DNA of 64,000 bases from Actinernus sp. WN-2022. Taxonomy: Eukaryota; Cnidaria; Anthozoa; Actiniaria; Actinernidae. The position numbers were made by a program, and so were the translations under genes. The notes beneath the pieces are model-generated. The model searched no databases. It was not told the DNA's origin and was given only the letters and a program-made list of their open reading frames with translations. Numbering within the stretch: the first letter of the stretch is position 1; each line of letters starts with the position of its first letter. The DNA lies in NCBI GenBank assembly GCA_030867875.1, contig JAOWCC010001501.1, forward strand, positions 14,599,524 through 14,663,523, in the 5' to 3' direction. Below, one piece after another: positions 3,095-60,785 of the stretch.

Positions 3095-3237
3095 TAATGT
3101 TTAGTGTTTTCAATGGGAGCACCACAACTAGTACATGCAGGTGATGATATTCAATTCTTTGTAAAAAGGTCGTAATTTAAAGCACTATTACTTAATCTTA
3201 AACGAGTATGCAAAATTGAAGGCAATCGGTCTCCAAG
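3095..3237 (-). pseudogene. LINE-A, internal piece of polyprotein C-terminus
   Basis: The minus-strand frame continues the reverse-transcriptase C-terminal frame left at 13,903. It then shifts near 3,150 into a short segment with a CTSCGAPIENTKHY motif typical of the zinc-binding tail of LINE polyproteins. The frame continuity across the palindrome is what defines the palindrome insertion site. CCAAG at 3,233-3,237 is one copy of the target duplication. Confidence 0.75.
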
Positions 3238-3259
3238 AGTAGTATACAAAGTAGGGGGA

Positions 3260-3370
3260 CTGGGACACACACAACAAATTTCAACGAACAAATGCAACAA
3301 AAAGCAACAAAGAGCATCAAACGGCTGGGACACGTACAACAAATTTCAACGAACCGATGCAACAAAAAAA
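3260..3370 (+). repeat. Outer direct repeats of the left arm
   Basis: Two imperfect copies, starting at 3,260 and 3,325 (spacing 65 bp), share CTGGGACAC and ACAACAAATTTCAACGAAC. They lie directly inside the element end. They could be binding sites for the element's Rep or HTH protein (inference). Confidence 0.7.
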
Positions 3371-3498
3371 CAAACATATGACACAAGAAAAAAAAAACAT
3401 ATAATAAGACCCTCATTTTTTCGTTGTATTTTTTAGTGCCCGTTGTTGCATTTTTTTTTTCACCCCATTAGAGAAAGGTTACTATTAGGTATTGCACT

Positions 3499-6398
3499 AT
3501 GGCCGAACCCCGTTTATTATATCGTGCGATATTCTATCGTATTTTCTCTAGCGATTCTCGTTTTTCCAACCCCGGGACTTTCGCAACATTATTAGAGCGA
3601 TCGTGCTATAATCGAGTAATCGAAGCCCTTCAAACAGAAGCAGTCGTCCGTAGTTGGACATCCGATTCGTTCATAAATATTTATTCTTCACGATGTGGAA
3701 CCGTACTTATAGGACCCTCATTTTTTTTTTCGGCTACCCCTCGTTTCGGCAACCATTTTGGCGAACACTTGCCACCCCCCAACAAGAAAGATGCAATTTG
3801 TTGCCAAGAAACTTCGTGTTGAACACTGGTGGCCCAAGGGATATAGGCAACCATTCCGATTGCCCCAAACCCTACAGCAACATGGCAGCTATCCACGCAA
3901 CATTCGAAAGCATGGGACTTCGTATGGAAAAGAACACAGCCCTCCATCTCCTACAAGAGAATACCTACGATAGCAACCTCGTTTCGATGTGGACTATCTG
4001 TCTGGAAACGAAGGCCAAACCAACCTGGTTCCACTCGAAGGTCTCCCAACGTTCGTGGACGACGTATACGTGTTCGGCTATCTATCTCGCGAGGAAGTAG
4101 TCTACAAAGGCCGAAAGGTTCTACTATCCACAGGAGAAGGTGGGAAAGCGAAACAGGTGGTTGCAGCAATCCAACTCGCAATCCAAAACTCTACCCTATC
4201 GAGCAAATCCCTACACGCAGCCATTGTCCACACAGTTCGATCTACCACCACTGGTATTGTCTCTACGACGATAGCCCGAATAGAAAACGACACAGAAAGC
4301 CGAGCACTCCAAGCATGGCGCAAGCTATATCCAGACAAAGAACCCGAGGCCTACTTCGTCGCCAAGGTAGATGTATCGGAAATTCCAATGGAGCAACTAC
4401 GAGATGCACTTGCAGGATTCGAAAGGCACCTCGAAATCGGCGGATACGGAATCTATTGCATAGACTATACCCAAGACTTCTCGGGAGTACTAGATCGCCC
4501 AACCCCTTGTGGACCATCTGGTGGAAAACGAAGGCATGCGAGAACAAGGAGACCTGGGCAGTGCAATGCGAGCCGACAGAGCAACCATCTTGGACAACAC
4601 AGGCTCTGTTGGAAAACACGTTTGCACGTATCTTCGCACCACACCAACAGGCAAGACGATTCGTGCAAAGATATACAACAAGATAGTTTCCAATTTCGAA
4701 GCAGGAGAGATTCGAGAACCTTTTGGTGGCCACCTTGCAGACTATGTCGACTGTCCCAACGAACATCTTCGCAAAACATTCCAGCAGCCGGATGTCCAGG
4801 CTAGAGGATGCACTCGAGTCGAAGTTTCGCTATATGCATGCCGCCTTGGCGAAGAGTTGTCTACCAATATAGGCAAAGAGCTGGTAGAGGGGGTTCTACA
4901 GACCTTGGGCCAAGATCTCTTCGTAGTACAACCACCATCCAGGCAATGGAAGAATCTCGCCCAAGAGCTGGACCGTTGTTGTATTCTTGCAGATCGGCCA
5001 TCCCACACAATATATGCAGTGTGGTATGCCCATTCCAAGACGAAGAGGGTAGCAGGAGTGCGGGTAGCTCCTACAGCAGCCATATGCGACAACGACCAGT
5101 ACTGGGAGAAAGCAGTACAATGGACGATTTCCGAGTTTGGTTTCCGATGCTGCCCAATATTTCGTGTGGATATTCTAGAGGCCACAGACGATGGCATCGA
5201 CATAGGTCCACTTCGCTGCTACACAAAAGCAGCCAACACTTCTACTATTCTTGCTGCCAGCAAACACCCAGTGCAGAAACACACCAACTGCCTTCCACCA
5301 AGCCAACTGTTTCCAGAAACCACCCAAGTAGCATGGATATGGCGAGAAAAACACACAAACCATGCTATAGGGAAAGAAAAGATTCGATGGCCACTAGAAG
5401 AAATACCCACAGATCGCGAAATATCCACGCTATCTACACACCATAGGCTAGCTAGATTGTTGTCTATTGCAGATGCGAAGAAGGCCGAGTTGTGGCGTCG
5501 TAGAGTTGTCGAAGAACAAGTTGCACTTCGAGCGAAAAGGATAGAAGAGATCGCGAACATAGAACGCTTCCTATCTGGAAAGAGAGCTTTCGAAGCAAAA
5601 GCAGCCAAGGTCGTAGGCAGGATAGAGATGGCCGCGAAAAACCCAACCTACAAGCTAGACTACTTTCTTCCCCACACCAACTTTCGTGTCCTAGGATTCC
5701 GAAGATGCAAAAGCCAGTATGGCAATACAGCCAGAATCTTTGTAGATGTCGAGGTGCCAGGGTGCGACGTACGAGAGGATATGGCCATATGGAGCACAAA
5801 AGGACTGTCGACTATACTCGACAAACTCGAGGGCAACTTCTCGCAGGCCAACCAACTATACTACCTAGTCCAACTATCCCCAAACAAACCAACCTTTCGT
5901 TTCCAAACCCAACCGGCGAAAAAGTTCTATGCCAACAACAAACAAATCGAATGGATTCCCATATCTATGCAAGAGACCCCAAACCCAGCAGACAAGCCTT
6001 TGGTAGAAGCCCTATTGCAAAAAGCCAACGAGGCATACGACGAGCTTCGTAGACACCCACGCAACCTTGCTATTGTACCACCACCCAAAAGAACAGAGTG
6101 CAACAAAGCAGTCGATCTAGCTATAGGCGAGTACATTTGCTTCCTATATTCTACAACCACCTTCCGAGGTAGTCCAAGAACTATTCTACATCTTCTTCCT
6201 GCAGATAGCGATGGCGAGCCTACCACCGACGAAGAGATGCCTACATATGGTTTCTTCCTAGAGCGAGAACTAGAAGCAATTGGCACAACAAACTTGGAAC
6301 GGGCTCTAGCTCCACTTCGCTGCTATCTTGGAGACATTCGAACCACACCAAACAAGAAGAAGGACAGACTTGCCACCATATCTATCTGCCAAGACTAG
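3499..6398 (+). pseudogene. Rep-like initiator gene, left copy, frameshifted
   Basis: This is the mirror of the open gene at 10,737-13,346. The frame is broken three times: a 10-T run at 3,721-3,730 separates an ATG-started leader ORF (from 3,499) from the Rep frame; a 10-bp deletion occurs near 3,986 relative to the right arm, at a CG microhomology; and one extra C lies in 4,503-4,506. From 4,509 to 6,398 the frame is open (629 codons) and nearly identical to the right copy. Amino-acid differences are few (for example G versus D in the FxGHL segment). The breaks look recent. Reads spanning one arm would decide whether they are real or assembly noise. Confidence 0.85.
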
Positions 6399-6732
6399 CC
6401 AGACGTTGGAATGCCGGACTATCTGGCCATGGCAAAACAAGACCATCCTCGTTGCACAACGAAGGAGTCTCGAAGTCTACGTCTCGCACAAGATACAATG
6501 GCCCGAGAGCAAGAGAATCGCATAGCGATTTCCCCACACTTTCTATTCCAACATCTTCCACACCTACATAGCACAAAATACCTTCTCCCTTTTTCGGCGA
6601 AGCAAGATATGCCTCCAAGGAAATCTGGGTCGCACCCGAAGACACTGCCGTAGCCATGGCTTCCTTCCAGGCCCGTATCGGATAGAACATTGGCCACTTT
6701 CCCCAACAACCGTACATTCGTAGAATATCCAT
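6382..6732 (-). CDS. Small convergent ORF, 116 aa, left copy
   Basis: An ATG-started ORF on the opposite strand to rep; its last codons overlap the rep 3' end by about 17 bp. The translation is identical in the right arm. It looks protein-like: an N-terminal aromatic segment (WGKWPMFYPIRAWKEA), a short alpha/beta-like middle and a C-terminal DVDFETPSLCNEDG stretch. No family is recognised. The spliced or unspliced state is unknown. A shorter plus-strand ORF in the same place (6,411-6,653) looks like a shadow. Confidence 0.45.
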   Translation of the reverse strand: MDILRMYGCWGKWPMFYPIRAWKEAMATAVSSGATQISLEAYLASPKKGEGILCYVGVEDVGIESVGKSLCDSLALGPLYLVRDVDFETPSLCNEDGLVLPWPDSPAFQRLASLGR

Positions 6733-6946
6733 ATTGCCATATACCTACATATAGCCATTCTCCAAAAGGGAATACATATACATATACGCGCTGCGAGATC
6801 TACGATTCTACTGCAAAGCTACGATCCTATTGCAAAGCTACGATCCTATTGCAAAGCTACGACTACAGCTCCAACTATGGATATCGTCTCTAGCTATACG
6901 TACATGTTGGAGAAACAGCTACATATATAGATATAGATACTATACG

Positions 6947-7552
6947 ATGCCACACAAAGCAGTTCTTTCGCCAGACCAGATCCAAAGTATTGCTTCGGGA
7001 GAGGTTGGTATTCGAGAGGCAGTACGACTCTACGGTATAGGACAAGGTAGAGCCTACCGAATCCAGAAAGGTTTGGAAACGCCTTCCATTGCTCCGACTA
7101 TACAACCCGAGACCAAAATCCACGAGCCAATGCAGGATATAGCAATCCTAGATCGTATACTAGATCTAGAACAAAAAGTGCAAATCCTAGAGGAAAACCA
7201 ACAATCCAATATAGTAGAAGATCCTATCCTAGAGTTGGAGATCCCAACCGAGCCAACGCAAGATGTAGCCCAACTACTAGAGTACATACAGGAACTGGAG
7301 ACAGATCTAGATGTTGCAAATCTGCGAGCCGATATAACGGAATCGAACCCAAAAGAAGTAGTATGGCCAAGTGTGCTTTTCTGCATCTTTGCTATATCCT
7401 CCGCAACCATAGAATATCGATTGGCAGAAAATAGAAAGCACATAGGACCTACCAAATTAGAAGGAAAAAAGAGCAAACATATACAGCCCGACAAATTGGA
7501 AGGAAGTAGACCAAACCCACATATACATAGACCACCACCCGACATGGAGTAG
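6947..7552 (+). CDS. HTH / coiled-coil / membrane-segment protein, left copy
   Basis: 201 aa from an ATG at 6,947. Residues 6-42 (LSPDQIQSIASGEVGIREAV and on) resemble a resolvase/Hin-type helix-turn-helix. Residues about 61-85 and 107-128 are acidic, leucine-rich coiled-coil-like segments. Residues about 138-157 are hydrophobic (VLFCIFAISSATIEY), a possible membrane span. The tail is basic and proline-rich (HIHRPPPDME). It could be a DNA-binding accessory or partition-like protein of the element; this is inference. It lies downstream of rep in the same direction. The stop is followed at once by a second, headless copy of the 3' two-thirds of the gene. Confidence 0.7.
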   Translation: MPHKAVLSPDQIQSIASGEVGIREAVRLYGIGQGRAYRIQKGLETPSIAPTIQPETKIHEPMQDIAILDRILDLEQKVQILEENQQSNIVEDPILELEIPTEPTQDVAQLLEYIQELETDLDVANLRADITESNPKEVVWPSVLFCIFAISSATIEYRLAENRKHIGPTKLEGKKSKHIQPDKLEGSRPNPHIHRPPPDME

Positions 7553-7928
7553 GAAATTGAGGAAAACCAACAATCCAATATAGTAGAAGATCCTATCCTA
7601 GAGTTGGAGATCCCAACCGAGCCAACGCAAGATGTAGCCCAACTACTAGAGTACATACAGGAACTGGAGACAGATCTAGATGTTGCAAATCTGCGAGCCG
7701 ATATAGCGGAATCGAACCCAAAAGAAGTAGTATGGCCAAGTGTGCTTTTCTGCATCTTTGCTATATCCTCCGCAACCATAGAATATCGATTGGCAGAAAA
7801 TAGAAAGCACATAGGACCTACCAAATTAGAAGGAAAAAAGAGCAAACATATACAGCCCGACAAATTGGAAGGAAGTAGACCAAACCCACATATACATAGA
7901 CCACCACCCGACATGGAGTAGGAAATTG
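7191..7928 (+). repeat. 369-bp tandem duplication within the HTH gene
   Basis: 7,191-7,559 is repeated at 7,560-7,928 with almost no change. The second copy encodes 105 codons without the HTH. The right arm has only one copy, so the duplication postdates formation of the palindrome, or was lost from the other arm. The length is a multiple of three, but a stop codon separates the copies. Confidence 0.92.
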
Positions 7929-7952
7929 CCTATGTAGACCACCACAAACAAA

Positions 7953-8578
7953 GCAAAAATAGAAAACAAGTAGCATCGCAAAAATAGAAAACAAGTAGCA
8001 CAGCAAAAATAGAAAACAAATAGCATAGCAAAAATAGAAAACAAATAGCATAGCAAAAGTAGAAAACGAATAGCATCGCAAAAATAGAAAACAAGTAGCA
8101 CAGCAAAAATAGAAAACAAATAGCATAGCAAAAATAGAAAACAAATAGCATAGCAAAAATAGAAAACAGTAGCATCGCAAAAATAGAAAACAAGTAGCAT
8201 CGCAAAAATAGAAAACACGTAGCATTGCAAAAAATAGAAAACAGTAGCATCGCAAAAAATAGAAAACAGTAGCATCGCAAAAAAATAGAAAACAGTAGCA
8301 TCGCAAAAAAAAAAAATAGAAAACAGCAGCATCGCAAAAAAAAAAAGAAAACAGTAGCACCGCAAAAATAGAAAACAAATGGCAAAGCAAAAGTAGAAAA
8401 CAAATAGCAAAGCAAAAGTAGAAAACGAATAGCATCGCAAAAATAGAAAACAAATAGCAAAGCAAAAGTAGAAAACAAATAGCATCGCAAAAATAGAAAA
8501 CAAGTAGCATCGCAAAAATAGAAAACAAATAGAAAAACAAATGGCACCGCAAAAGATAGGAAAACGAATGGCACGGCA
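7953..8578 (+). repeat. 25-bp tandem array, left arm
   Basis: About 24 units of GCAAAAATAGAAAACAAATAGCAT(C/A), with variants of 23-27 bp (an A-rich stretch lengthens near 8,310-8,345). It lies between the HTH gene and the palindrome centre. Because 25 is not a multiple of three and the unit lacks stops on the minus strand, long Phe/Cys/Leu-rich ORFs appear in several frames; these are artefacts. The position suggests iteron-like replication or partition sites (inference). Confidence 0.9.
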
Positions 8579-8792
8579 AAATACGAACCATAGCAAACAA
8601 CGTCCAGCCTACAGTCCACCACCACGAATCTGCAGACAAATACAATCCATAGGCACCACAAAAGAACTACTATCTTTGGCGATTGCTTTCTCCAGGTACG
8701 TATGCGTAGTATCGTGTCTCTGGATGTGTAGTATCTTGTCTACCCACATATGTTCGTACCTGTAGAGGCGATACGATACTAGTCCGGACTAG
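8541..8792 (+). other. Inner tip of the left arm, with a weak 74-aa ORF
   Basis: Between the array and the centre. An ATG-started ORF (8,541-8,765) is kept in both arms with one difference. It has a basic start and a hydrophobic C-terminal half. Starting inside the array makes it doubtful. The last bases before the centre run into the CTAG palindromes. Confidence 0.35.
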
Positions 8793-8824
8793 CAAAAAAC
8801 TAGCAAAGGTCTAGTCCGGACTAG
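8779..8824. repeat. Palindrome centre: two 14-bp palindromes around an 18-bp loop
   Basis: CTAGTCCGGACTAG occurs at 8,779-8,792 and again at 8,811-8,824. Each is a perfect palindrome, and together they close the 5 kb arms. The spacer 8,793-8,810 is not symmetrical and holds another CTAG. The layout resembles a duplicated hairpin telomere or concatemer junction (inference). Confidence 0.9.
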
Positions 8825-9026
8825 TATCGTATCGCCTCTACAGGTACGAACATATGTGGGTAGACAAGATACTACACATCCAGAGACACGATACTACGCA
8901 TACGTACCTGGAGAAAGCAATCGCCAAAGATAGTAGTTCTTTTGTGGTGCCTATGGAGTGTATTTGTCTGCAGATTCGTGGTGGTGGACTGTAGGCTGGA
9001 CGTTGTTTGCTATGGTTCGTATTTTG

Positions 9027-9552
9027 CCGTGCCATTCGTTTTCCTATCTTTTGCGGTGCCATTTGTTTTTCTATTTGTTTTCTATTTTTGCGATGCTACT
9101 TGTTTTCTATTTTTGCGATGCTATTTGTTTTCTACTTTTGCTTTGCTATTTGTTTTCTATTTTTGCGATGCTATTCGTTTTCTACTTTTGCTTTGCTATT
9201 TGTTTTCTACTTTTGCTTTGCCATTTGTTTTCTATTTTTGCGGTGCTACTGTTTTCTTTTTTTTTTTGCGATGCTGCTGTTTTTTTTTTTTTTTTTTTTG
9301 CGATGCTACTGTTTTCTATTTTTTTGCGATGCTACTGTTTTCTATTTTTTGCGATGCTACTGTTTTCTATTTTTTGCAATGCTACGTGTTTTCTATTTTT
9401 GCGATGCTACTTGTTTTCTATTTTTGCGATGCTACTGTTTTCTATTTTTGCTATGCTATTTGTTTTCTATTTTTGCTATGCTATTTGTTTTCTATTTTTG
9501 CTGTGCTACTTGTTTTCTATTTTTGCGATGCTACTTGTTTTCTATTTTTGCT
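9027..9552 (-). repeat. 25-bp tandem array, right arm
   Basis: About 21 units, the mirror of the left array, again with a homopolymer-expanded part (9,255-9,300). Unit number and T-run lengths differ from the left arm. Confidence 0.9.
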
Positions 9553-9582
9553 TTGTTTGTGGTGGTCTACATAGGCAATTTC

Positions 9583-10188
9583 CTACTCCATGTCGGGTGG
9601 TGGTCTATGTATATGTGGGTTTGGTCTACTTCCTTCCAATTTGTCGGGCTGTATATGTTTGCTCTTTTTTCCTTCTAATTTGGTAGGTCCTATGTGCTTT
9701 CTATTTTCTGCCAATCGATATTCTATGGTTGCGGAGGATATAGCAAAGATGCAGAAAAGCACACTTGGCCATACTACTTCTTTTGGGTTCGATTCCGCTA
9801 TATCGGCTCGCAGATTTGCAACATCTAGATCTGTCTCCAGTTCCTGTATGTACTCTAGTAGTTGGGCTACATCTTGCGTTGGCTCGGTTGGGATCTCCAA
9901 CTCTAGGATAGGATCTTCTACTATATTGGATTGTTGGTTTTCCTCTAGGATTTGCACTTTTTGTTCTAGATCTAGTATACGATCTAGGATTGCTATATCC
10001 TGCATTGGCTCGTGGATTTTGGTCTCGGGTTGTATAGTCGGAGCAATGGAAGGCGTTTCCAAACCTTTCTGGATTCGGTAGGCTCTACCTTGTCCTATAC
10101 CGTAGAGTCGTACTGCCTCTCGAATACCAACCTCTCCCGAAGCAATACTTTGGATCTGGTCTGGCGAAAGAACTGCTTTGTGTGGCAT
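9583..10188 (-). CDS. HTH / coiled-coil / membrane-segment protein, right copy
   Basis: 201 aa from an ATG at 10,188, essentially identical to the left copy. N-terminal HTH (about residues 6-42), two coiled-coil-like stretches, one hydrophobic segment (about 138-157) and a proline-rich tail. Here the gene is single and ends shortly before the array. It sits downstream of rep in the same direction, with about 550 bp between them partly filled by the convergent ORF. A role in binding the 25-bp array is an inference from position only. Confidence 0.72.
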   Translation of the reverse strand: MPHKAVLSPDQIQSIASGEVGIREAVRLYGIGQGRAYRIQKGLETPSIAPTIQPETKIHEPMQDIAILDRILDLEQKVQILEENQQSNIVEDPILELEIPTEPTQDVAQLLEYIQELETDLDVANLRADIAESNPKEVVWPSVLFCIFAISSATIEYRLAENRKHIGPTKLEGKKSKHIQPDKLEGSRPNPHIHRPPPDME

Positions 10189-10402
10189 CGTATAGTATCT
10201 ATATCTATATATGTAGCTGTTTCTCCAACATGTACGTATAGCTAGAGACGATATTCATAGTTGGAGCTGTAGTCGTAGCTTTGCAATAGGATCGTAGCTT
10301 TGCAATAGGATCGTAGCTTTGCAGTAGAATCGTAGATCTCGCAGCGCGTATATGTATATGTATTCCCTTTTGGAGAATGGCTATATGTAGGTATATGGCA
10401 AT

Positions 10403-10753
10403 ATGGATATTCTACGAATGTACGGTTGTTGGGGAAAGTGGCCAATGTTCTATCCGATACGGGCCTGGAAGGAAGCCATGGCTACGGCAGTGTCTTCGGG
10501 TGCGACCCAGATTTCCTTGGAGGCATATCTTGCTTCGCCGAAAAAGGGAGAAGGTATTTTGTGCTATGTAGGTGTGGAAGATGTTGGAATAGAAAGTGTG
10601 GGGAAATCGCTATGCGATTCTCTTGCTCTCGGGCCATTGTATCTTGTGCGAGACGTAGACTTCGAGACTCCTTCGTTGTGCAACGAGGATGGTCTTGTTT
10701 TGCCATGGCCAGATAGTCCGGCATTCCAACGTCTGGCTAGTCTTGGCAGATAG
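10403..10753 (+). CDS. Small convergent ORF, 116 aa, right copy
   Basis: Same translation as 6,382-6,732. It overlaps the rep 3' end (10,737) tail to tail. No family is recognised. Identity between arms is not independent evidence of selection, because the arms are nearly identical everywhere. Confidence 0.45.
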   Translation: MDILRMYGCWGKWPMFYPIRAWKEAMATAVSSGATQISLEAYLASPKKGEGILCYVGVEDVGIESVGKSLCDSLALGPLYLVRDVDFETPSLCNEDGLVLPWPDSPAFQRLASLGR

Positions 10754-13346
10754 ATATGGTGGCAAGTCTGTCCTTCTTCTTGTTTGGTGTGGTTCGAATG
10801 TCTCCAAGATAGCAGCGAAGTGGAGCTAGAGCCCGTTCCAAGTTTGTTGTGCCAATTGCTTCTAGTTCTCGCTCTAGGAAGAAACCATATGTAGGCATCT
10901 CTTCGTCGGTGGTAGGCTCGCCATCGCTATCTGCAGGAAGAAGATGTAGAATAGTTCTTGGACTACCTCGGAAGGTGGTTGTAGAATATAGGAAGCAAAT
11001 GTACTCGCCTATAGCTAGATCGACTGCTTTGTTGCACTCTGTTCTTTTGGGTGGTGGTACAATAGCAAGGTTGCGTGGGTGTCTACGAAGCTCGTCGTAT
11101 GCCTCGTTGGCTTTTTGCAATAGGGCTTCTACCAAAGGCTTGTCTGCTGGGTTTGGGGTCTCTTGCATAGATATGGGAATCCATTCGATTTGTTTGTTGT
11201 TGGCATAGAACTTTTTCGCCGGTTGGGTTTGGAAACGAAAGGTTGGTTTGTTTGGGGATAGTTGGACTAGGTAGTATAGTTGGTTGGCCTGCGAGAAGTT
11301 GCCCTCGAGTTTGTCGAGTATAGTCGACAGTCCTTTTGTGCTCCATATGGCCATATCCTCTCGTACGTCGCACCCTGGCACCTCGACATCTACAAAGATT
11401 CTGGCTGTATTGCCATACTGGCTTTTGCATCTTCGGAATCCTAGGACACGAAAGTTGGTGTGGGGAAGAAAGTAGTCTAGCTTGTAGGTTGGGTTTTTCG
11501 CGGCCATCTCTATCCTGCCTACGACCTTGGCTGCTTTTGCTTCGAAAGCTCTCTTTCCAGATAGGAAGCGTTCTATGTTCGCGATCTCTTCTATCCTTTT
11601 CGCTCGAAGTGCAACTTGTTCTTCGACAACTCTACGACGCCACAACTCGGCCTTCTTCGCATCTGCAATAGACAACAATCTAGCTAGCCTATGGTGTGTA
11701 GATAGCGTGGATATTTCGCGATCTGTGGGTATTTCTTCTAGTGGCCATCGAATCTTTTCTTTCCCTATAGCATGGTTTGTGTGTTTTTCTCGCCATATCC
11801 ATGCTACTTGGGTGGTTTCTGGAAACAGTTGGCTTGGTGGAAGGCAGTTGGTGTGTTTCTGCACTGGGTGTTTGCTGGCAGCAAGAATAGTAGAAGTGTT
11901 GGCTGCTTTTGTGTAGCAGCGAAGTGGACCTATGTCGATGCCATCGTCTGTGGCCTCTAGAATATCCACACGAAATATTGGGCAGCATCGGAAACCAAAC
12001 TCGGAAATCGTCCATTGTACTGCTTTCTCCCAGTACTGGTCGTTGTCGCATATGGCTGCTGTAGGAGCTACCCGCACTCCTGCTACCCTCTTCGTCTTGG
12101 AATGGGCATACCACACTGCATATATTGTGTGGGATGGCCGATCTGCAAGAATACAACAACGGTCCAGCTCTTGGGCGAGATTCTTCCATTGCCTGGATGG
12201 TGGTTGTACTACGAAGAGATCTTGGCCCAAGGTCTGTAGAACCCCCTCTACCAGCTCTTTGCCTATATTGGTAGACAACTCTTCGCCAAGGCGGCATGCA
12301 TATAGCGAAACTTCGACTCGAGTGCATCCTCTAGCCTGGACATCCGGATGCTGGAATGTTTTGCGAAGATGTTCGTTGGGACAGTCGACATAGTCTGCAA
12401 GGTGGCCATCAAAAGGTTCTCGAATCTCTCCTGCTTCGAAATTGGAAACTATCTTGTTGTATATCTTTGCACGAATCGTCTTGCCTGTTGGTGTGGTGCG
12501 AAGATACGTGCAAACGTGTTTTCCAACAGAGCCTGTGTTGTCCAAGATGGTTGCTCTGTCGGCTCGCATTGCACTGCCCAGGTCTCCTTGTTCTCGCATG
12601 CCTTCGTTTTCCACCAGATGGTCCACAAGGGTTGGGCGATCTAGTACTCCCGAGAAGTCTTGGGTATAGTCTATGCAATAGATTCCGTATCCGCCGATTT
12701 CGAGGTGCCTTTCGAATCCTGCAAGTGCATCTCGTAGTTGCTCCATTGGAATTTCCGATACATCTACCTTGGCGACGAAGTAGGCCTCGGGTTCTTTGTC
12801 TGGATATAGCTTGCGCCATGCTTGGAGTGCTCGGCTTTCTGTGTCGTTTTCTATTCGGGCTATCGTCGTAGAGACAATACCAGTGGTGGTAGATCGAACT
12901 GTGTGGACAATGGCTGCGTGTAGGGATTTGCTCGATAGGGTAGAGTTTTGGATTGCGAGTTGGATTGCTGCAACCACCTGTTTCGCTTTCCCACCTTCTC
13001 CTGTGGATAGTAGAACCTTTCGGCCTTTGTAGACTACTTCCTCGCGAGATAGATAGCCGAACACGTATACGTCGTCCACGAACGTTGGGAGACCTTCGAG
13101 TGGAACCAGGTTGGTTTGGCCTTCGTTTCCAGACAGATAGTCCACATCGGCAATGTCCGAAACGAGGTTGCTATCGTAGGTATTCTCTTGTAGGAGATGG
13201 AGGGCTGTGTTCTTTTCCATACGAAGTCCCATGCTTTCGAATGTTGCGTGGATAGCTGCCATGTTGCTGTAGGGTTTGGGGCAATCGGAATGGTTGCCTA
13301 TATCCCTTGGGCCACCAGTGTTCAACACGAAGTTTCTTGGCAACAA
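10737..13346 (-). CDS. Rep_trans-like replication initiator, right copy (open)
   Basis: 869 codons open from a TTG at 13,346; the first in-frame ATG is at 13,262 (841 codons). Rep_trans-type initiators and Tn916-like relaxases (family knowledge) share three blocks in order: an acidic strand, a Y-x-K block and an R-x-E block. Here I see CIDYTQDF (about residues 224-231), IRAKIYNK (about 291-298) after a G-T-rich strand, and CTRVEVSLYA (about 341-350). The nicking tyrosine would be sought in or near the second block; this is not certain. A charged helical stretch spans about 560-615. No Walker A helicase motif is seen, and no HUH motif. The C-terminal 250 residues are unassigned. An ATG leader ORF (13,644) is joined to this frame only if a T-run (13,414-13,422, 9 T) is read with one base fewer, so the true start is unsettled. 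The protein probably nicks the element to start copying or transfer. Confidence 0.7.
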   Translation of the reverse strand: MLPRNFVLNTGGPRDIGNHSDCPKPYSNMAAIHATFESMGLRMEKNTALHLLQENTYDSNLVSDIADVDYLSGNEGQTNLVPLEGLPTFVDDVYVFGYLSREEVVYKGRKVLLSTGEGGKAKQVVAAIQLAIQNSTLSSKSLHAAIVHTVRSTTTGIVSTTIARIENDTESRALQAWRKLYPDKEPEAYFVAKVDVSEIPMEQLRDALAGFERHLEIGGYGIYCIDYTQDFSGVLDRPTLVDHLVENEGMREQGDLGSAMRADRATILDNTGSVGKHVCTYLRTTPTGKTIRAKIYNKIVSNFEAGEIREPFDGHLADYVDCPNEHLRKTFQHPDVQARGCTRVEVSLYACRLGEELSTNIGKELVEGVLQTLGQDLFVVQPPSRQWKNLAQELDRCCILADRPSHTIYAVWYAHSKTKRVAGVRVAPTAAICDNDQYWEKAVQWTISEFGFRCCPIFRVDILEATDDGIDIGPLRCYTKAANTSTILAASKHPVQKHTNCLPPSQLFPETTQVAWIWREKHTNHAIGKEKIRWPLEEIPTDREISTLSTHHRLARLLSIADAKKAELWRRRVVEEQVALRAKRIEEIANIERFLSGKRAFEAKAAKVVGRIEMAAKNPTYKLDYFLPHTNFRVLGFRRCKSQYGNTARIFVDVEVPGCDVREDMAIWSTKGLSTILDKLEGNFSQANQLYYLVQLSPNKPTFRFQTQPAKKFYANNKQIEWIPISMQETPNPADKPLVEALLQKANEAYDELRRHPRNLAIVPPPKRTECNKAVDLAIGEYICFLYSTTTFRGSPRTILHLLPADSDGEPTTDEEMPTYGFFLERELEAIGTTNLERALAPLRCYLGDIRTTPNKKKDRLATISICQD

Positions 13347-13769
13347 ATTGCATCTTTCTTGTTGGGGGGTGGCAAGTGTTCGCCAAAATGGTTGCCGAAA
13401 CGAGGGGTAGCCGAAAAAAAAATGAGGGTCCTATAAGTACGGTTCCACATCGTGAAGAATAAATATTTATGAACGAATCGGATGTCCAACTGCGGACGAC
13501 TGCTTCTGTTTGAAGGGCTTCGATTACTCGATTATAGCACGATCGCTCTAATAATGTTGCGAAAGTCCCGGGGTTGGAAAAACGAGAATCGCTAGAGAAA
13601 ATACGATAGAATATCGCACGATATAATAAACGGGGTTCGGCCATAGTGCAATACCTAATAGTAACCTTTCTCTAATGGGGTTAAAAAAAAATGCAACAAC
13701 GCGCACTAAAAAATACAACGAAAAAATGAGGGTCTTATTATATGTTGTTTTTTCTTGTGTCATATGTTT

Positions 13770-13881
13770 TTTTTTTGTTGCATCGGTTCGTTGAAATTTG
13801 TTGTACGTGTCCCAGCCGTTTGATGCTCTTTGTTGCTTTTTGTTGCATTTGTTCGTTGAAATTTGTTGTGTGTGTCCCAGT
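13770..13881 (-). repeat. Outer direct repeats of the right arm
   Basis: Mirror of 3,260-3,370: two copies with 65-bp spacing just inside the element end. Confidence 0.7.
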
Positions 13882-13902
13882 CCCCCTACTTTGTATACTA
13901 CT

Positions 13903-14440
13903 CCAAGATAATAAAGATAATTACGTGATGAAAAGTTATATAACTTGGATAATTTATACTTGAAGCAGCTTAACGTTGGAGAAAGGCGCACTTCAGATGG
14001 AAGACTATTCCACAATTTAGTTGATGAAAAAACAAAAGATTTGTTGTGCCTTTCCGTACGAACAGAGGGCAGTGTGAGGTTGCTAGAGGTGCGAAGGCTA
14101 TAACTCGATCTTTCACTAACCTGAATAGGACATAGATCATTTAAGTAGGGTGCTGCTAACTTAGATACAATTTTATACATCATACACAGTTTATGAACAC
14201 TTCGTCTCTGTTTTAATTCCACCCAAGAAATATCTTGTAGTAGGCTGGCTCTATGAGTACCTTTCATTGCACCAGTAACCCTAGCACCTTTAATTTGCAA
14301 ACTTTCTAATAGATCACTATTGGTTACCAAACACCCATCCCAGACAACATCAGCATATTCTAATGATGAACTAACAAGGGATTTGAAAAGCACTTCAAGA
14401 GTAGATCTACTCAGTTTATACTTTAGAGGCTTTAGCATGT
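13903..14440 (-). pseudogene. LINE-A reverse transcriptase, C-terminal part
   Basis: The minus-strand frame encodes the thumb/C-terminal part of a CR1/L2/jockey-type RT polyprotein: KPLKYKLSRSTLEVLF, SSSLEYADVVWDG and KLWNSLPSEVR blocks. The catalytic RT core is absent upstream, where a Bel/Pao fragment abuts. The frame runs straight into the palindrome at 13,902 and continues at 3,237, giving a natural marker of the insertion. CCAAG at 13,903-13,907 is the second target-duplication copy. Confidence 0.82.
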
Positions 14441-15401
14441 TCAGCAATCTGGCGTATCCGCTGTTCTGCAGCCACCGCCGAATCTCTTTTGGGTCTGAAT
14501 GCAACTGCTTTCGGATTCAGTGCTGTATTGTTGGGTCTCACGCCTTGTCTGTCACTTGAAAGCTCAAGAGGATACAAGTGTTGGATGGCACGTTCGAGAT
14601 GTGAGTTCCCTGCCCGCAATCTCGCCGCACGTACCACTCCTGAGATTCAATTTCTTCGGTTGTCAGTGGTCCTCTAGTTCTTTGGGAGATCGGCTTTTTA
14701 GCATTGCGCACGAACCGCATCATCCACGCACATACCCGTAAGACTCGCCAGTAGCTAGTCTTAGAGAGGAGGTCGTCTAAATCGTCGTCTGATGAAGTGG
14801 CCAAGGCGAATAATTGCTTTGTCGCCTTTGTCTCTGCTTTCGATTCTGCCGCCTTTGTCTCTGCTTTCGATTCTGCACTAGCTGCGGTTACAATGTCTGG
14901 CGGCCACTTATCACAATCACCCAGCCACTCTGGCCCGTTCCACCATAGCTTGTTCTCCTCGTTCACCGGTCCGCCTCTGCTACCAAGGTCTGCTGGGTTT
15001 TCGTGGGTGGACACATGTCTCCAGACGACTCTGTCGTGTTCCTTTATCTTGCGAACCCGGTTGCCCACAAATTGCTTGTACTCACCATCTCCACGCAACC
15101 AATGCAGGGCTACACTGCTATCAAGCCAACAGTGTAGTGCGGTCACAGGAAATCCTTGTAGTGCGTCACGCACGTTGGTCAGTAAATTGACAGCCATGTG
15201 ACCGGACACTAATTCCATGCGTGGAATTGTGAGTCCTTGTTTTGCTAGTCTTGCCCTCGCTGCAACAAGTCCCTCTGATGCTTGCGTGACAACAGCGTAT
15301 ACAGCCACAGCAACGCCCTTGCCGCTAGCATCTCCAAAGGCGTGGAGGGAGATATCCACGGTGGGCTCTTGAACACGTGCCAACGTCCGCGTGACGCTCA
15401 C
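14437..15401 (-). pseudogene. Bel/Pao retrotransposon: RNase H region and pol C-terminus, integrase deleted
   Basis: From 15,401 down, the frame shows the Bel/Pao RNase H-like block (LHAFGDASGKGVAVAVYAV, IPRMELVSGHMAVNLL, CWLDSSVALHWL, HVSTHENPADLGSRG), then the start of the integrase N-terminal region (RGPLTTEEIESQEW). At about 14,640 it jumps to the pol C-terminal segment (RAARLRAGNSHLERAIQHL, PLEL) in another frame. The DDE integrase core that normally lies between is missing, so this copy is inactive. A TAA separates this part from 15,402-15,728 in the same frame. Confidence 0.85.
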
Positions 15402-16905
15402 TTACTCGGGAAGACTACTCTCCCATTTCTCCCACCGTTGTACTAGTTCATCGGGTAATGGTGCATCCCAGGCGCACTTCTTGTCACAGGCTTCCCGATA
15501 TAGCAGCTTCCCTTGAAGGATGGTTGGTGCAACTAAGCCGAGAGGATCATATATCTTGGCCACTTTGCCAAGTATACCCCTCTTCGTAGGCTGGGCGACG
15601 CCCATCGGATAGGCGACTGCTATCGTGTCAGTTCGTTTGTGCCATTTCAATCCGAGGAGACCGCACTCCCCAGACTTGACACACAACTGCTGCTTAGTGT
15701 AGCTCAGGCTCCCTTCTTTCTTCTGCATTTCAATCTAGTTCTAACTCACAAATGTTAGAGTTCCATTTGTGCAACTGAAAAGTTGCCTTGCTGAATATCT
15801 CGGTCGCAGTTTTCTTCATTTCGCGCACTTGTTGCACAGTTTGTCCTCCAGTGACTAGGTCATCGACGTACAAGCTGCGCTCGATTTCCTTTACGCACTC
15901 TGGATGTTCATCTGGGCACACATCTAGATGGTGTTGTATTACACCACCCAGCAAGAACGGCGAAGGTCCCAGGCCAAAGAGTGCCCGGGTGAATTGCAAT
16001 GTTTGCACTCGTTGGGGGTCCTTTGCGTCCAACCAGTGAAACCGCAATGCATCTCGGTTCTCAGTGCGAATCCGCACTTGAAGGAATGCCTTGCGAATGT
16101 CGCCAGCGAGTGCTACGGCGTGGAATCTCCCCCGCACGAGTACCTTCCACAGCTTGTTCTGCAGAGGTGGGCCGATCTCGAGACAGTCGTTAAGGGAGAG
16201 CGCAGAGTCGTTAGCCTTCGCGGAAGCATCGTAGACAATCCGCATTTTTGTTGTCTCTGCACTCTCTCTCACAACTGCTTTGTGAGGTATGTATAATTCT
16301 CTTCCAGTGGCTGGCATCTCTGCATCCTCTACCACTCCTGTCTGCAACTGGTCCTGAATGATGGCATCGTATTCGTCTAGTCTCCCGGTTTTCTTTAGTC
16401 GCTGAACAAGGCTTCCCAGTCGTCTCAAGCTTCCAGCTTCGTTGTTTTGCAAGGGGGGGTGGTCTCCCCTGCAGGATAAGGTTGTTTCGTACCACCCCTC
16501 CGGATTGCGTTGGAGCTGTTCCAGGAACTCCGTATGCACGACATTTTGATCTCCGGTGGGCGTGACCTCGAGCCCGAACACATCCAATCTGCACAGCATT
16601 TCATAATCGGTACTAGTGGTGTGAGTAAGAAACATATTGTCAATGTTCGCTTCGGTACCTGAGGACATTATTATCCAGCCTAATAATTTGGTATGCTCAG
16701 CTACAGGTTGGCCCATACTTCCGGTTCTCTGGGTTTCACGTGTTTTGATTTTAGCGTACTCGCTAGCTCCAAGGATAATGTGGACCGGAAGCATGCTCTT
16801 AGTATCAATATCCTCCATTCGCACTCCTTTCAAGTGTGGATAATTACGTATCATTTCCGCATACCGACAACAAACAATTCCCCGCGATCCACTCGCGTAG
16901 CGCAC
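15402..16905 (-). pseudogene. Bel/Pao pol: RT and A17-type region, decayed
   Basis: 15,730-16,905 gives 391 open codons: a protease-end segment (MLPVHIILGASEYAKI), a linker, and the Bel/Pao RT with KMRIVYDASAK, GDIRKAFLQV and the catalytic YVDDLV. A frameshift near 15,729 leads to 15,402-15,728 with the KRGILGKVAKIYDPLGLVAP block. An in-frame TAA at 15,402-15,404 follows. The upstream protease core and gag are truncated near 16,950-17,000. No LTRs are seen in the window. Confidence 0.85.
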
Positions 16906-50959: not shown

Positions 50960-51740
50960 TAAGACGAAATGAATAAAATACATGATACTCTAATAATTTG
51001 TTACTTTAAACTTAAACCTATCCATGTAAATCAAACCTTTTAACCATTTGACTCAACTCATATAAACAATTAAAGTCTCAACACCTTATATCCTAAAAAA
51101 TTAACCAATTTTACAAAATAATTTATCCTCTAACTACATACTGCTCTAAACACTTTAATATGAACCAATATTTAAACATATGTATACATAATACTCAAAT
51201 AATATGTTATTTTAAACTATTCCAGAAAAACCGAACCTTTTAACGGCTGACTCAAATCATCTAAACAATGCCAAAACTATTAAATAGCACTGCGTCACCT
51301 GGTTTCACATCACTCCCATATAATTTTCTCTTTAGCAACCCTAAAATGACAAAGTACAGCTAAACTAATCAGCAGCTAGCTCACTACAAACATAAAATAT
51401 AAATATTTTAAAGACGAAATAAATAAAATACATGATACTCTAATAATTTGTTACTTTAAACTTAAGCCGATCCATGTAAATCAAACCTTTTAACCATTTG
51501 ACTCAAATCATATAAACAATTAAAGTCTCCGCACCTTATATCTTAAAAAAATAACCATGTTTACAAAATAATTTATCCTGAGCTACATACTGCTCTAAAC
51601 ATTTTAATATGAACCAATATTTAAATAATTTTAAAACATATATATGCATAGTACTCAAATAATATACTATTTTAAACTAATCCATGTAAACCGAACCTCT
51701 TAACGGCTGGCTCAAATCATCTAAACAATGCCATATTAAC
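50960..51740. repeat. AT-rich tandem repeat, about 225 bp, four units
   Basis: GACGAAAT...ATACATGATACTC recurs with a 450-bp period (50,963 and 51,413). Weaker half-period copies near 51,175 and 51,630 share CTCAAATAAT and ATCAT-x-TAAACAAT. It looks like a young satellite with higher-order dimers. Confidence 0.75.
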
Positions 51741-51779
51741 TTTTGAGTAGCACCGTGTCACCTGATTTCACATCACTCC

Positions 51780-52050
51780 CATTCCCATTTTCCCCCCTCC
51801 CCCCCCCCCTAAGCTCCCTCAACACCATCTATCTCACTCTAACATATAAACCTCTAAAATCTCTACAACATTTTGTATACCCTAGGCCGTACGAACCCTC
51901 TCCCTGACATCCATCAATCATCGCTACTATTACACGCCCCTTCTCCACACCCTTCAACCCCAAACCTCGCTCCAACAAAACAAACCCCCCACCCCGCCCC
52001 CCCCTGTTTCCAACAAAAATCACCATCACCCCTCTCCCCCTCCCTTTCCC
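51780..52050. repeat. C/A-rich low-complexity stretch
   Basis: Strongly pyrimidine-rich and purine-poor plus strand with runs of C (51,791-51,811; 52,000 region). No coding support. Confidence 0.6.
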
Positions 52051-59500: not shown

Positions 59501-60785
59501 CAAGTACCCAGGAACTGAATTGTTAAATCGTTACTGTTATAAAGTGCTTGTTATAACCCCATAATACGTTTGAATCTTTATGATGTCCATTATCACCAAG
59601 GTAAATGAAATAGAGCATTCAGGTAGCCTGTTCGTCTGTTGCGAAGTCAGCATGAAAAATATTACGGGGTTGAACTGTTTTGACGCAAAGAGAGCTGTCA
59701 ACCTGGTACTTCTTTTTATGCCGACTTCACAACAGACTACCCTATTTCCACCAGACGTACTCACTTGTTTGCTACTGTTGTGTTATTAACCTTTGTTGAA
59801 CATTAAATTATATTTATCGTTACTGCTGTGGTTATTTTAAAGCTCCTATAGTCTTATGGCTGTATCGCGTGACTGACCATCGATTGACCATCGATTGACC
59901 ATCGATTGACCATCGATTGACCATCGATTGACCATCGATTGACCATCGATTGACCATCGATTGACCATCGATTGACCATCGATTGACCATCGATTGACCA
60001 TCGATTGACCATCGATTGACCATCGATTGACCATCGATTGACCATCGATTGACCATCGATTGACCATCGATTGACCATCGATTGACCATCGATTGACCAT
60101 CGATTGACCATCGATTGACCATCGATTGACCATCGATTGACCATCGATTGATCCTTTTCCGCTATAAGGACCAGGGAGATTTCGGAGGACCCCCAATAAT
60201 TTGATATTAATTTTTGGTATAATTACTATTAAAAATGGCAGCAAAATATACCAAGGATCCCCAACCTGCTAACAGAGACTCTTCTTGTGTTCTCTCGCCA
60301 TTAGATTTCGTCTGTCACGAAGAAAACAGGCCAGCTACACGAAAATAAGAACAGCTACGCGAAGAGACACACACACGAACGACTCTTGGAAATACCTAAT
60401 AGTAGAAATGCTCTGCTAGGAGGGCAAGGATACCCCAATACGTACTACACTCCTGTTTATGCCTTTTATTCAAGGTGGATAACCTTTGGTTGTATAAAAC
60501 AGGGATATAAATTTGAGATCTCACCCACACCAGTGCCGGACTAAAATCAAAGCCAACATTAAGTAACGCTTATTTTCATGAAATTCGAGCTGCCTGTACG
60601 AGCCCGCACTTCATGACCAGGGGTTACAACTAGTTGAGAACAATAACTTAACATGTTCCATTCGCCCTGCTAGGTGAGGTTTCTCTCTTCTTATTTTACC
60701 TGTAGAGACCGGTGCTAGCTGTGAGTCTGAGGGAACCTGTGACACTTTAACCGAAGAAGTATTACTTGTTTTTTTCCCCTCACTC
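56550..60785. other. Interior of the long-TIR element, non-coding
   Basis: No ORF longer than 90 codons that looks like protein. A hairpin ATTGCGGG...CCCGCAAT lies at 59,079-59,107. Unassigned AT-rich DNA otherwise. Confidence 0.5.
59871..60150. repeat. 11-bp satellite GATTGACCATC
   Basis: About 25 perfect head-to-tail copies of GATTGACCATC. Almost no variants, so it is very young or unstable. The minus strand reads as an endless MVNRWSIDGQS repeat in all three frames, a period effect (33 bp = 11 codons), not a gene. Confidence 0.97.

Follow-up and report, generated by a model that had tools for sequence, protein, structure and literature searches.

Palindromic elements in the genome of Actinernus sp. 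WN-2022 with a predicted Rep_trans-like nickase and, in some copies, Polinton-like ends

A 64-kb stretch of the Actinernus sp. WN-2022 genome (GCA_030867875.1, contig JAOWCC010001501.1; the assembly comprises 1772 contigs totalling 1.39 Gb), hereafter the window, contains an inserted palindromic element of 10,665 bp. Each of its arms carries a gene resembling those of Rep_trans replication proteins (the "Rep-like gene") and a gene for a helix-turn-helix (HTH)/coiled-coil protein. Near-identical copies are abundant in the same genome. The reading we favour, with moderate confidence, is that a palindromic Rep module lies between inverted outer segments, and that it is a fold-back replicator integrating via Polinton-like AGTAGTA ends.

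An inverted-repeat scan detected arms of 3061, 521, 509 and 488 nt with 99–100% complementarity, the innermost being 18 nt apart. The alignment of positions 3237–8793 with 13903–8803 exhibits 10 mismatches in 5083 aligned bases (99.8% identity outside indels). The indels are a left-arm tandem duplication of 369 bp (7190–7928), a 100-bp difference in array length and several short ones. The palindromy of the element is real and far beyond chance. Both arms are oriented inwards, in the order Rep-like gene, 19-bp repeats, HTH gene, 25-bp array and centre (Table 1). After in silico removal of the element and one copy of the flanking CCAAG, a frame stays open over the junction, reaching a stop codon after about 27 residues. 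The CCAAG on both sides and the open frame over the rejoined flanks therefore indicate one insertion into older sequence. A preliminary description of this DNA had proposed just such a unit of two inverted arms, each with a 25-bp array, and is borne out on both points. We take the restored frame to be the C-terminal part of a long interspersed nuclear element (LINE); a Pfam search with the frame of the right-hand flank gave only a weak unrelated match.

Nine of 13 distinct loci possess AGTAGTA termini on both sides together with exact 5-bp duplications, the sequence of which differs by locus. At one further locus the duplication agrees at four of five positions. Past the first 8 bases or so, the termini diverge among the distinct loci compared, so that the ends of the palindromes seem, from their sequences, to be drawn from several families sharing a terminal motif. 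A 6-bp duplication was considered and rejected. Of the nine loci with exact duplications, five have A immediately after the right copy, the other four having C, G, T and G, and because this base is not constant we kept the length of 5 bp. The A at those five loci is a weak hint of a target preference.

A DNA search of the genome with the Rep-like gene gave at least 40 full-length matches at 98–100% identity, besides four short matches (of 274 candidate places, 40 were scored; all copies come from this one assembly). The full-length matches form 15 inverted pairs, the window copy and nine single listings. The 10-kb stretches beside all nine singles hold an inverted second copy; in five of them (L040, L042, L044, L045 and L046), which were counted as inverted, this second arm is truncated or leaves the stretch. 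All 25 elements examined are palindromic, corresponding to 22 distinct loci (L009/L011, L013/L015 and L029/L031 have common flanks and each was counted once). This uniformity rules out a single chance dimer. Copies without arm inversion, which would have contradicted the preliminary description, were looked for and did not appear among the 25. The further copies that it proposed to look for do exist; their ends, with AGTAGTA at nine of the 13 distinct loci, are not identical. The two members of the C888 pair are separated by 29 kb; no second arm was seen in the 10 kb immediately inward, but the ends share GCGCG.

At 10 of the 12 distinct loci with gene sequence (13 names, since C903 and C1380a denote a single locus), one arm or both carry an intact Rep-like frame. 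The gene differs by 0–0.47% between the arms of one element (median 0.17%, 11 elements with C903 and C1380a both included), and by a median of 0.87% between elements (309 comparisons, the lowest values belonging to one two-contig locus and a few close relatives). Either one template serves for both arms or conversion equalises them. Ten representatives compared with their majority sequence exhibit 27 synonymous and 49 nonsynonymous variants in about 595 and 1928 sites, respectively; the ratio of about 0.56 is a blend of constraint and decay. Judged from these differences, the family is young and many of its copies were recently mobile.

A sharp internal boundary, absent from the preliminary description, is located at positions 3707 and 13436 of the window. 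The boundary motif TTATAGGAC[A/C]CTCATTTTTT was found in all 32 arms examined, and outside it the sequence changes by element. In six of 16 pairs, representing 5 of 13 distinct loci, the two arms of a single element differ at the boundary; five of these six show one outer sequence with unequal cut points. The arms of L017/L018 diverge 30 and 66 bp before the boundary; those of L027/L028 are alike at it. The outer segment of L013 and L015 contains a cut frame, namely the N-terminal 278 aa of a long one.

Searching the genome with this 278-aa frame, we scored at least 135 places of 3380 first-look candidates, many of the scored places lying within open frames some 1,200 aa long. Two of the 135 are palindromes of the Rep-module family, matching all 290 residues; the other rows end at residue 278 or 280. 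Four of the parent loci are 96–99% identical to L013 over about 1,070–1,080 bp, and five on the + strand start with the terminus AGTAGTAT, 350–470 bp ahead of the frame. The frame of parent locus L068 contains the segments LYLDANNLYGWAM, LMNNSVFGK and LLYTDTDS, presumably the motifs A, B and C of B-family DNA polymerases, and matches Endonuclease_7 at the family cut-off. Family profile searches with the parent frame reported no DNA polymerase family, and no such frame was found in viral contigs; other matches were one restriction endonuclease in PDB (E-value = 0.049) and endonuclease VII in PHROGs. Frames like that of L068 are typical of animal Polintons, and we therefore refer to the parents as Polinton/Maverick-like. 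With 3380 first-look candidates (135 scored), many of the scored ones in frames of about 1,200 aa, this is apparently a large and recently active polymerase-frame family.

Comparison of 11 arms with ten parent loci gave long matches for L013, L014 and L023, short or weak ones for L009, L017, L018, L027 and L035, and none for L025, L033 and L037. In at least three of the 16 pairs the outer part corresponds to the polymerase-side end of a Polinton/Maverick-like element, two having the polymerase frame cut at the boundary. This assignment is firm for one locus type, L013/L014 and L015/L016, and good for L023. A Polinton-like origin of the other outer segments, that of the window included, is an unproved extension by analogy. 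By the same analogy the outer ~470 bp of the window element, which contain a short frame start of no recognised kind, seem to lie outside the core. The outer segment of L033 carries a zinc-ribbon frame that matches the TFIIB repeat below the cut-off (E-value = 0.0029), and that of L019 is alike. This frame (365–1108 in L033, 610–1110 in L019) may be a gene derived from a Polinton-like parent.

The 841-aa protein encoded by the Rep-like gene is predicted to contain a TBP-like fold region; it also has a long helix and, C-terminally, an SSB-like region. The fold region was aligned to 4cij and 4cwe, with marginal scores. Residues Y268-N-K270, D63/D64, D198 and E317 are conserved and placed on separate predicted strands, their equivalence being one of pattern, not of superposition on structures. 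The conserved D, D, Y-x-K, R-x-E pattern appears to be that of Rep_trans nickases, the catalytic residues of which were taken from PMC4797284. We thus predict a Rep_trans-like nickase, the catalytic equivalence depending on this residue pattern. A function as TBP itself was rejected: Pfam shows no TBP family match at E-value 1, and the protein is long and bears the nickase pattern. In PDB the protein gave no match by sequence and its profile matched one TBP (E-value = 0.64); in NCBIfam and PHROGs the best match is no better than E-value = 0.038. Among 48 relatives searched in Pfam at E-value 0.5, PF02486 (Rep_trans) is absent from the best 25 of 33 families. No relatives were found in viral contigs, prokaryote genomes, phages or plasmids. 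With 8000 candidates scored, at least 157 relatives were obtained at E-value ≤ 1e-3; the four with names among the 120 listed belong to Elysia crispata (two), Nematostella (one) and an assembly of Candidatus Thiodiazotropha, a clam symbiont (one). The family thus seems broad, as far as such matches indicate. Two proteins tried as Rep_trans comparison seeds were dropped, SMA9 RstA for having no Pfam family and a phage B5 protein for matching Rep_1.

The second gene encodes a protein of 201 aa, in keeping with the HTH/coiled-coil protein first described, and matches HTH_28 below the family cut-off (E-value = 0.0011). By our own reading of the letters it also appears to contain a hydrophobic segment. 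No homologs were obtained at E-value 0.001 among 134 candidates. Across 23 loci of the genome, 16 have one full-length or nearly full-length match, three a broken or partial one (L039, L053, L062) and four none (L044, L045, L058, L059). The N-terminus is constant, and identity ranges from 68 to 99.5%. It drops to about 68–75% in L049–L062 and L039–L047, loci whose Rep genes differ by no more than 1.6% where compared; this sequence pattern suggests exchange of segments among copies. The arms of L044 and L045 contain dozens of copies of the 19-bp repeat, the centre is different and there is no HTH match. Some other copies possess CTAG-rich arrays of several hundred nucleotides at the centre, or rearranged centres such as A B C D E E D' B C D E, which look like turn-around products.

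These observations can be joined into one mechanism, of which we infer the nicking and joining, the fold-back copying and the integration in trans. The TBP-fold Rep_trans-like protein would nick via Y268 and join the TTATAGGACC end of the module to the DNA of a Polinton-like parent. The joined arm, consisting of parent end, Rep arm and centre, would fold back at the palindromic, CTAG-rich, hairpin-like centre, and copying through arm, turn and return would yield a palindrome whose two parent ends are identical. Unequal outer cuts require two independent joins; if both module ends were joined independently, the parent pieces would be cut at different points. The product, bearing two AGTAGTA termini, would then be inserted in trans by the machinery (integrase) of the parent, leaving the 5-bp duplication. 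Several points count against this proposal. The 841-aa protein does not match PF02486 in Pfam even at E-value 1, so that the Rep_trans-like initiator of the preliminary description gains a predicted fold and a residue pattern but at marginal scores and with no family match. Polymerase-side ends are proved for three of the 16 pairs, not for most. Gene conversion between arms and a helper-free life are both possible.

A free-standing, hairpin-ended linear replicon integrated as a dimer, having its own telomeric parts as outer segments, would account for near-identical arms, rearranged hairpin-like centres, a Rep-like protein and an outer segment such as that of the window, which has no identified parent. 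This was the interpretation first offered. It now appears unlikely: the outer segments vary at a fixed boundary, some being cut Polinton-like sequence, and the exact 5-bp duplications indicate insertion of the integrase or transposase type. A chimera with borrowed ends is the likelier structure because the outer part is a Polinton-like end, at that boundary, in at least three of 16 pairs. Only slightly less credence goes to the idea that the palindromes are snap-back deletion derivatives of a Polinton-like element itself encoding the Rep and HTH proteins, with no separate module. Several palindromes do have Polinton-like ends, and linear replicons naturally give rise to terminal fold-backs. 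A deletion series from a single parent is however expected to vary on both sides, whereas the join falls on one and the same base in 32 of 32 arms and the sequence outside it differs, even within one element.

More doubtful still is an ordinary long terminal inverted repeat (TIR) or foldback cut-and-paste transposon with an unseen transposase and arms equalised by gene conversion. The inverted ends, the 5-bp duplications and the long inverted arms with arrays and loop would suit it, as would the DDE_Tnp_4 match of one of the 48 relatives; but Pfam finds no transposase in either conserved gene of the window, and variable outer parts cut unequally at a fixed boundary are not accounted for. Inverted read chimeras are known to produce palindromes from some long-read libraries, but such an assembly artefact, or a misassembled second arm, is highly improbable and was ruled out, given the different flanks with target duplications on the two sides, the frame restored at the empty site, the substitutions and indels between the arms and the identical boundaries at many loci.

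Table 1. Features of the palindromic element (positions in the window)
Feature	Position	Strand	Remarks
Left target-site duplication CCAAG	3233..3237	.	5 bp, flanking left terminus
Whole inserted palindromic element	3238..13902	.	10,665 bp; termini AGTAGTATAC / GTATACTACT
Left outer segment	3238..3706	+	Holds start of truncated frame; parent end only by analogy with other copies
Module boundary, left arm	3707..3726	+	TTATAGGACCCTCATTTTTT
Rep-like gene copy, left arm	3882..6398	+	Frame broken by short indels
19-bp tandem repeat, left arm	6800..6862	+	3.3 copies
HTH gene copy, left arm	6947..7552	+	Overlaps 369-bp tandem duplication
25-bp array, left arm	7953..8532	+	
Centre-proximal segments A–E, left arm	8681..8792	+	Terminate in CTAGTCCGGACTAG
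Asymmetric 18-nt spacer	8793..8810	.	One CTAGCAAAGGT unit
Segments E–A, right arm	8811..8922	-	
25-bp array, right arm	9071..9551	-	
HTH/coiled-coil protein gene, right arm	9583..10188	-	201 aa
19-bp tandem repeat, right arm	10273..10335	-	
Intact putative Rep_trans/TBP-fold-like gene, right arm	10737..13262	-	841 aa from ATG; C-terminal SSB-like region
Module boundary, right arm	13417..13436	-	
Right outer segment	13437..13902	-	Inverted copy of left outer segment
Right target-site duplication CCAAG	13903..13907	.	5 bp, flanking right terminus

The 64-kb window contains no tRNA gene and has retrotransposon remains. Those at 14538–16905 are of BEL/Pao type (Peptidase_A17, weak RVT_1) and lie beside the fragment interrupted by the palindrome. 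A perfect 11-bp tandem array of TGACCATCGAT (25 copies) occupies 59874–60151, and the GC skew reaches −0.60 in a single kilobase (51001–52000).

Compared with the Rep_trans proteins (PF02486: RepD, RepSTK1), the window protein appears to have the TBP-like fold region and the residue pattern in common, but differs in its size, long helix, SSB-like region, lack of a Pfam match and eukaryotic genome. According to PMC13107129, Rep_trans seems to be confined to bacteria, and Rep-Arvir of archaeal viruses and plasmids is a related TBP-fold endonuclease, the link not being recognisable by sequence. The latter, compared by description only, would share the TBP-fold endonuclease but has archaeal hosts, unlike a palindromic element in a eukaryote.

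With the Polinton/Maverick-like parents in the Actinernus genome, the palindromes have the AGTAGTA terminal motif in common and, for L013, L014 and L023, long identity. The window element differs in being palindromic and in its 5-bp duplication, that of Polintons being 6 bp. Neither PolB, an integrase nor any further Polinton gene was seen in it (frames of at least 150 aa; Pfam on the main frames). Replitrons and Helitrons are likewise eukaryotic transposons based on a replication-type nicking protein. Replitrons have no TIRs, short direct terminal repeats, a length of 0.9–4 kb and an HUH enzyme, according to PMC10741241. The window element has instead full-length inverted arms and a TBP-fold-like protein; a general Pfam scan revealed no HUH family in its proteins, no dedicated HUH motif scan having been made. 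Foldback elements, a structural label silent on mechanism, resemble it in very long inverted arms, internal arrays and a central loop, but the palindromic elements possess a conserved Rep-like gene and variable outer ends. The hairpin-like, rearranged palindromic centre recalls the rolling-hairpin replication of parvoviruses, a resemblance in way of working only, with no shared gene shown. In the open-access literature we found no title describing such an element, and claim its absence in print no further.

The suggestion of a candidate new kind of mobile element made at the outset is supported. It is possible, and we advance this more tentatively than the mechanism itself, that the family is the first eukaryotic one of Rep_trans/TBP-fold nickases, carried on a palindromic module that rebuilds both arms from one by fold-back copying and, by joining Polinton-like ends, acts as a replication and integration satellite of Polinton-like elements, and so a new class of animal mobile element. 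If so, it would add another eukaryotic transposon of the replication-type nicking kind to the HUH-based Helitrons and Replitrons, and would extend TBP-fold nickases into eukaryotes. It would also constitute a natural system that makes and tolerates very long palindromes, and a satellite using Polinton-like ends would parallel the virophage type of parasitism among mobile elements.
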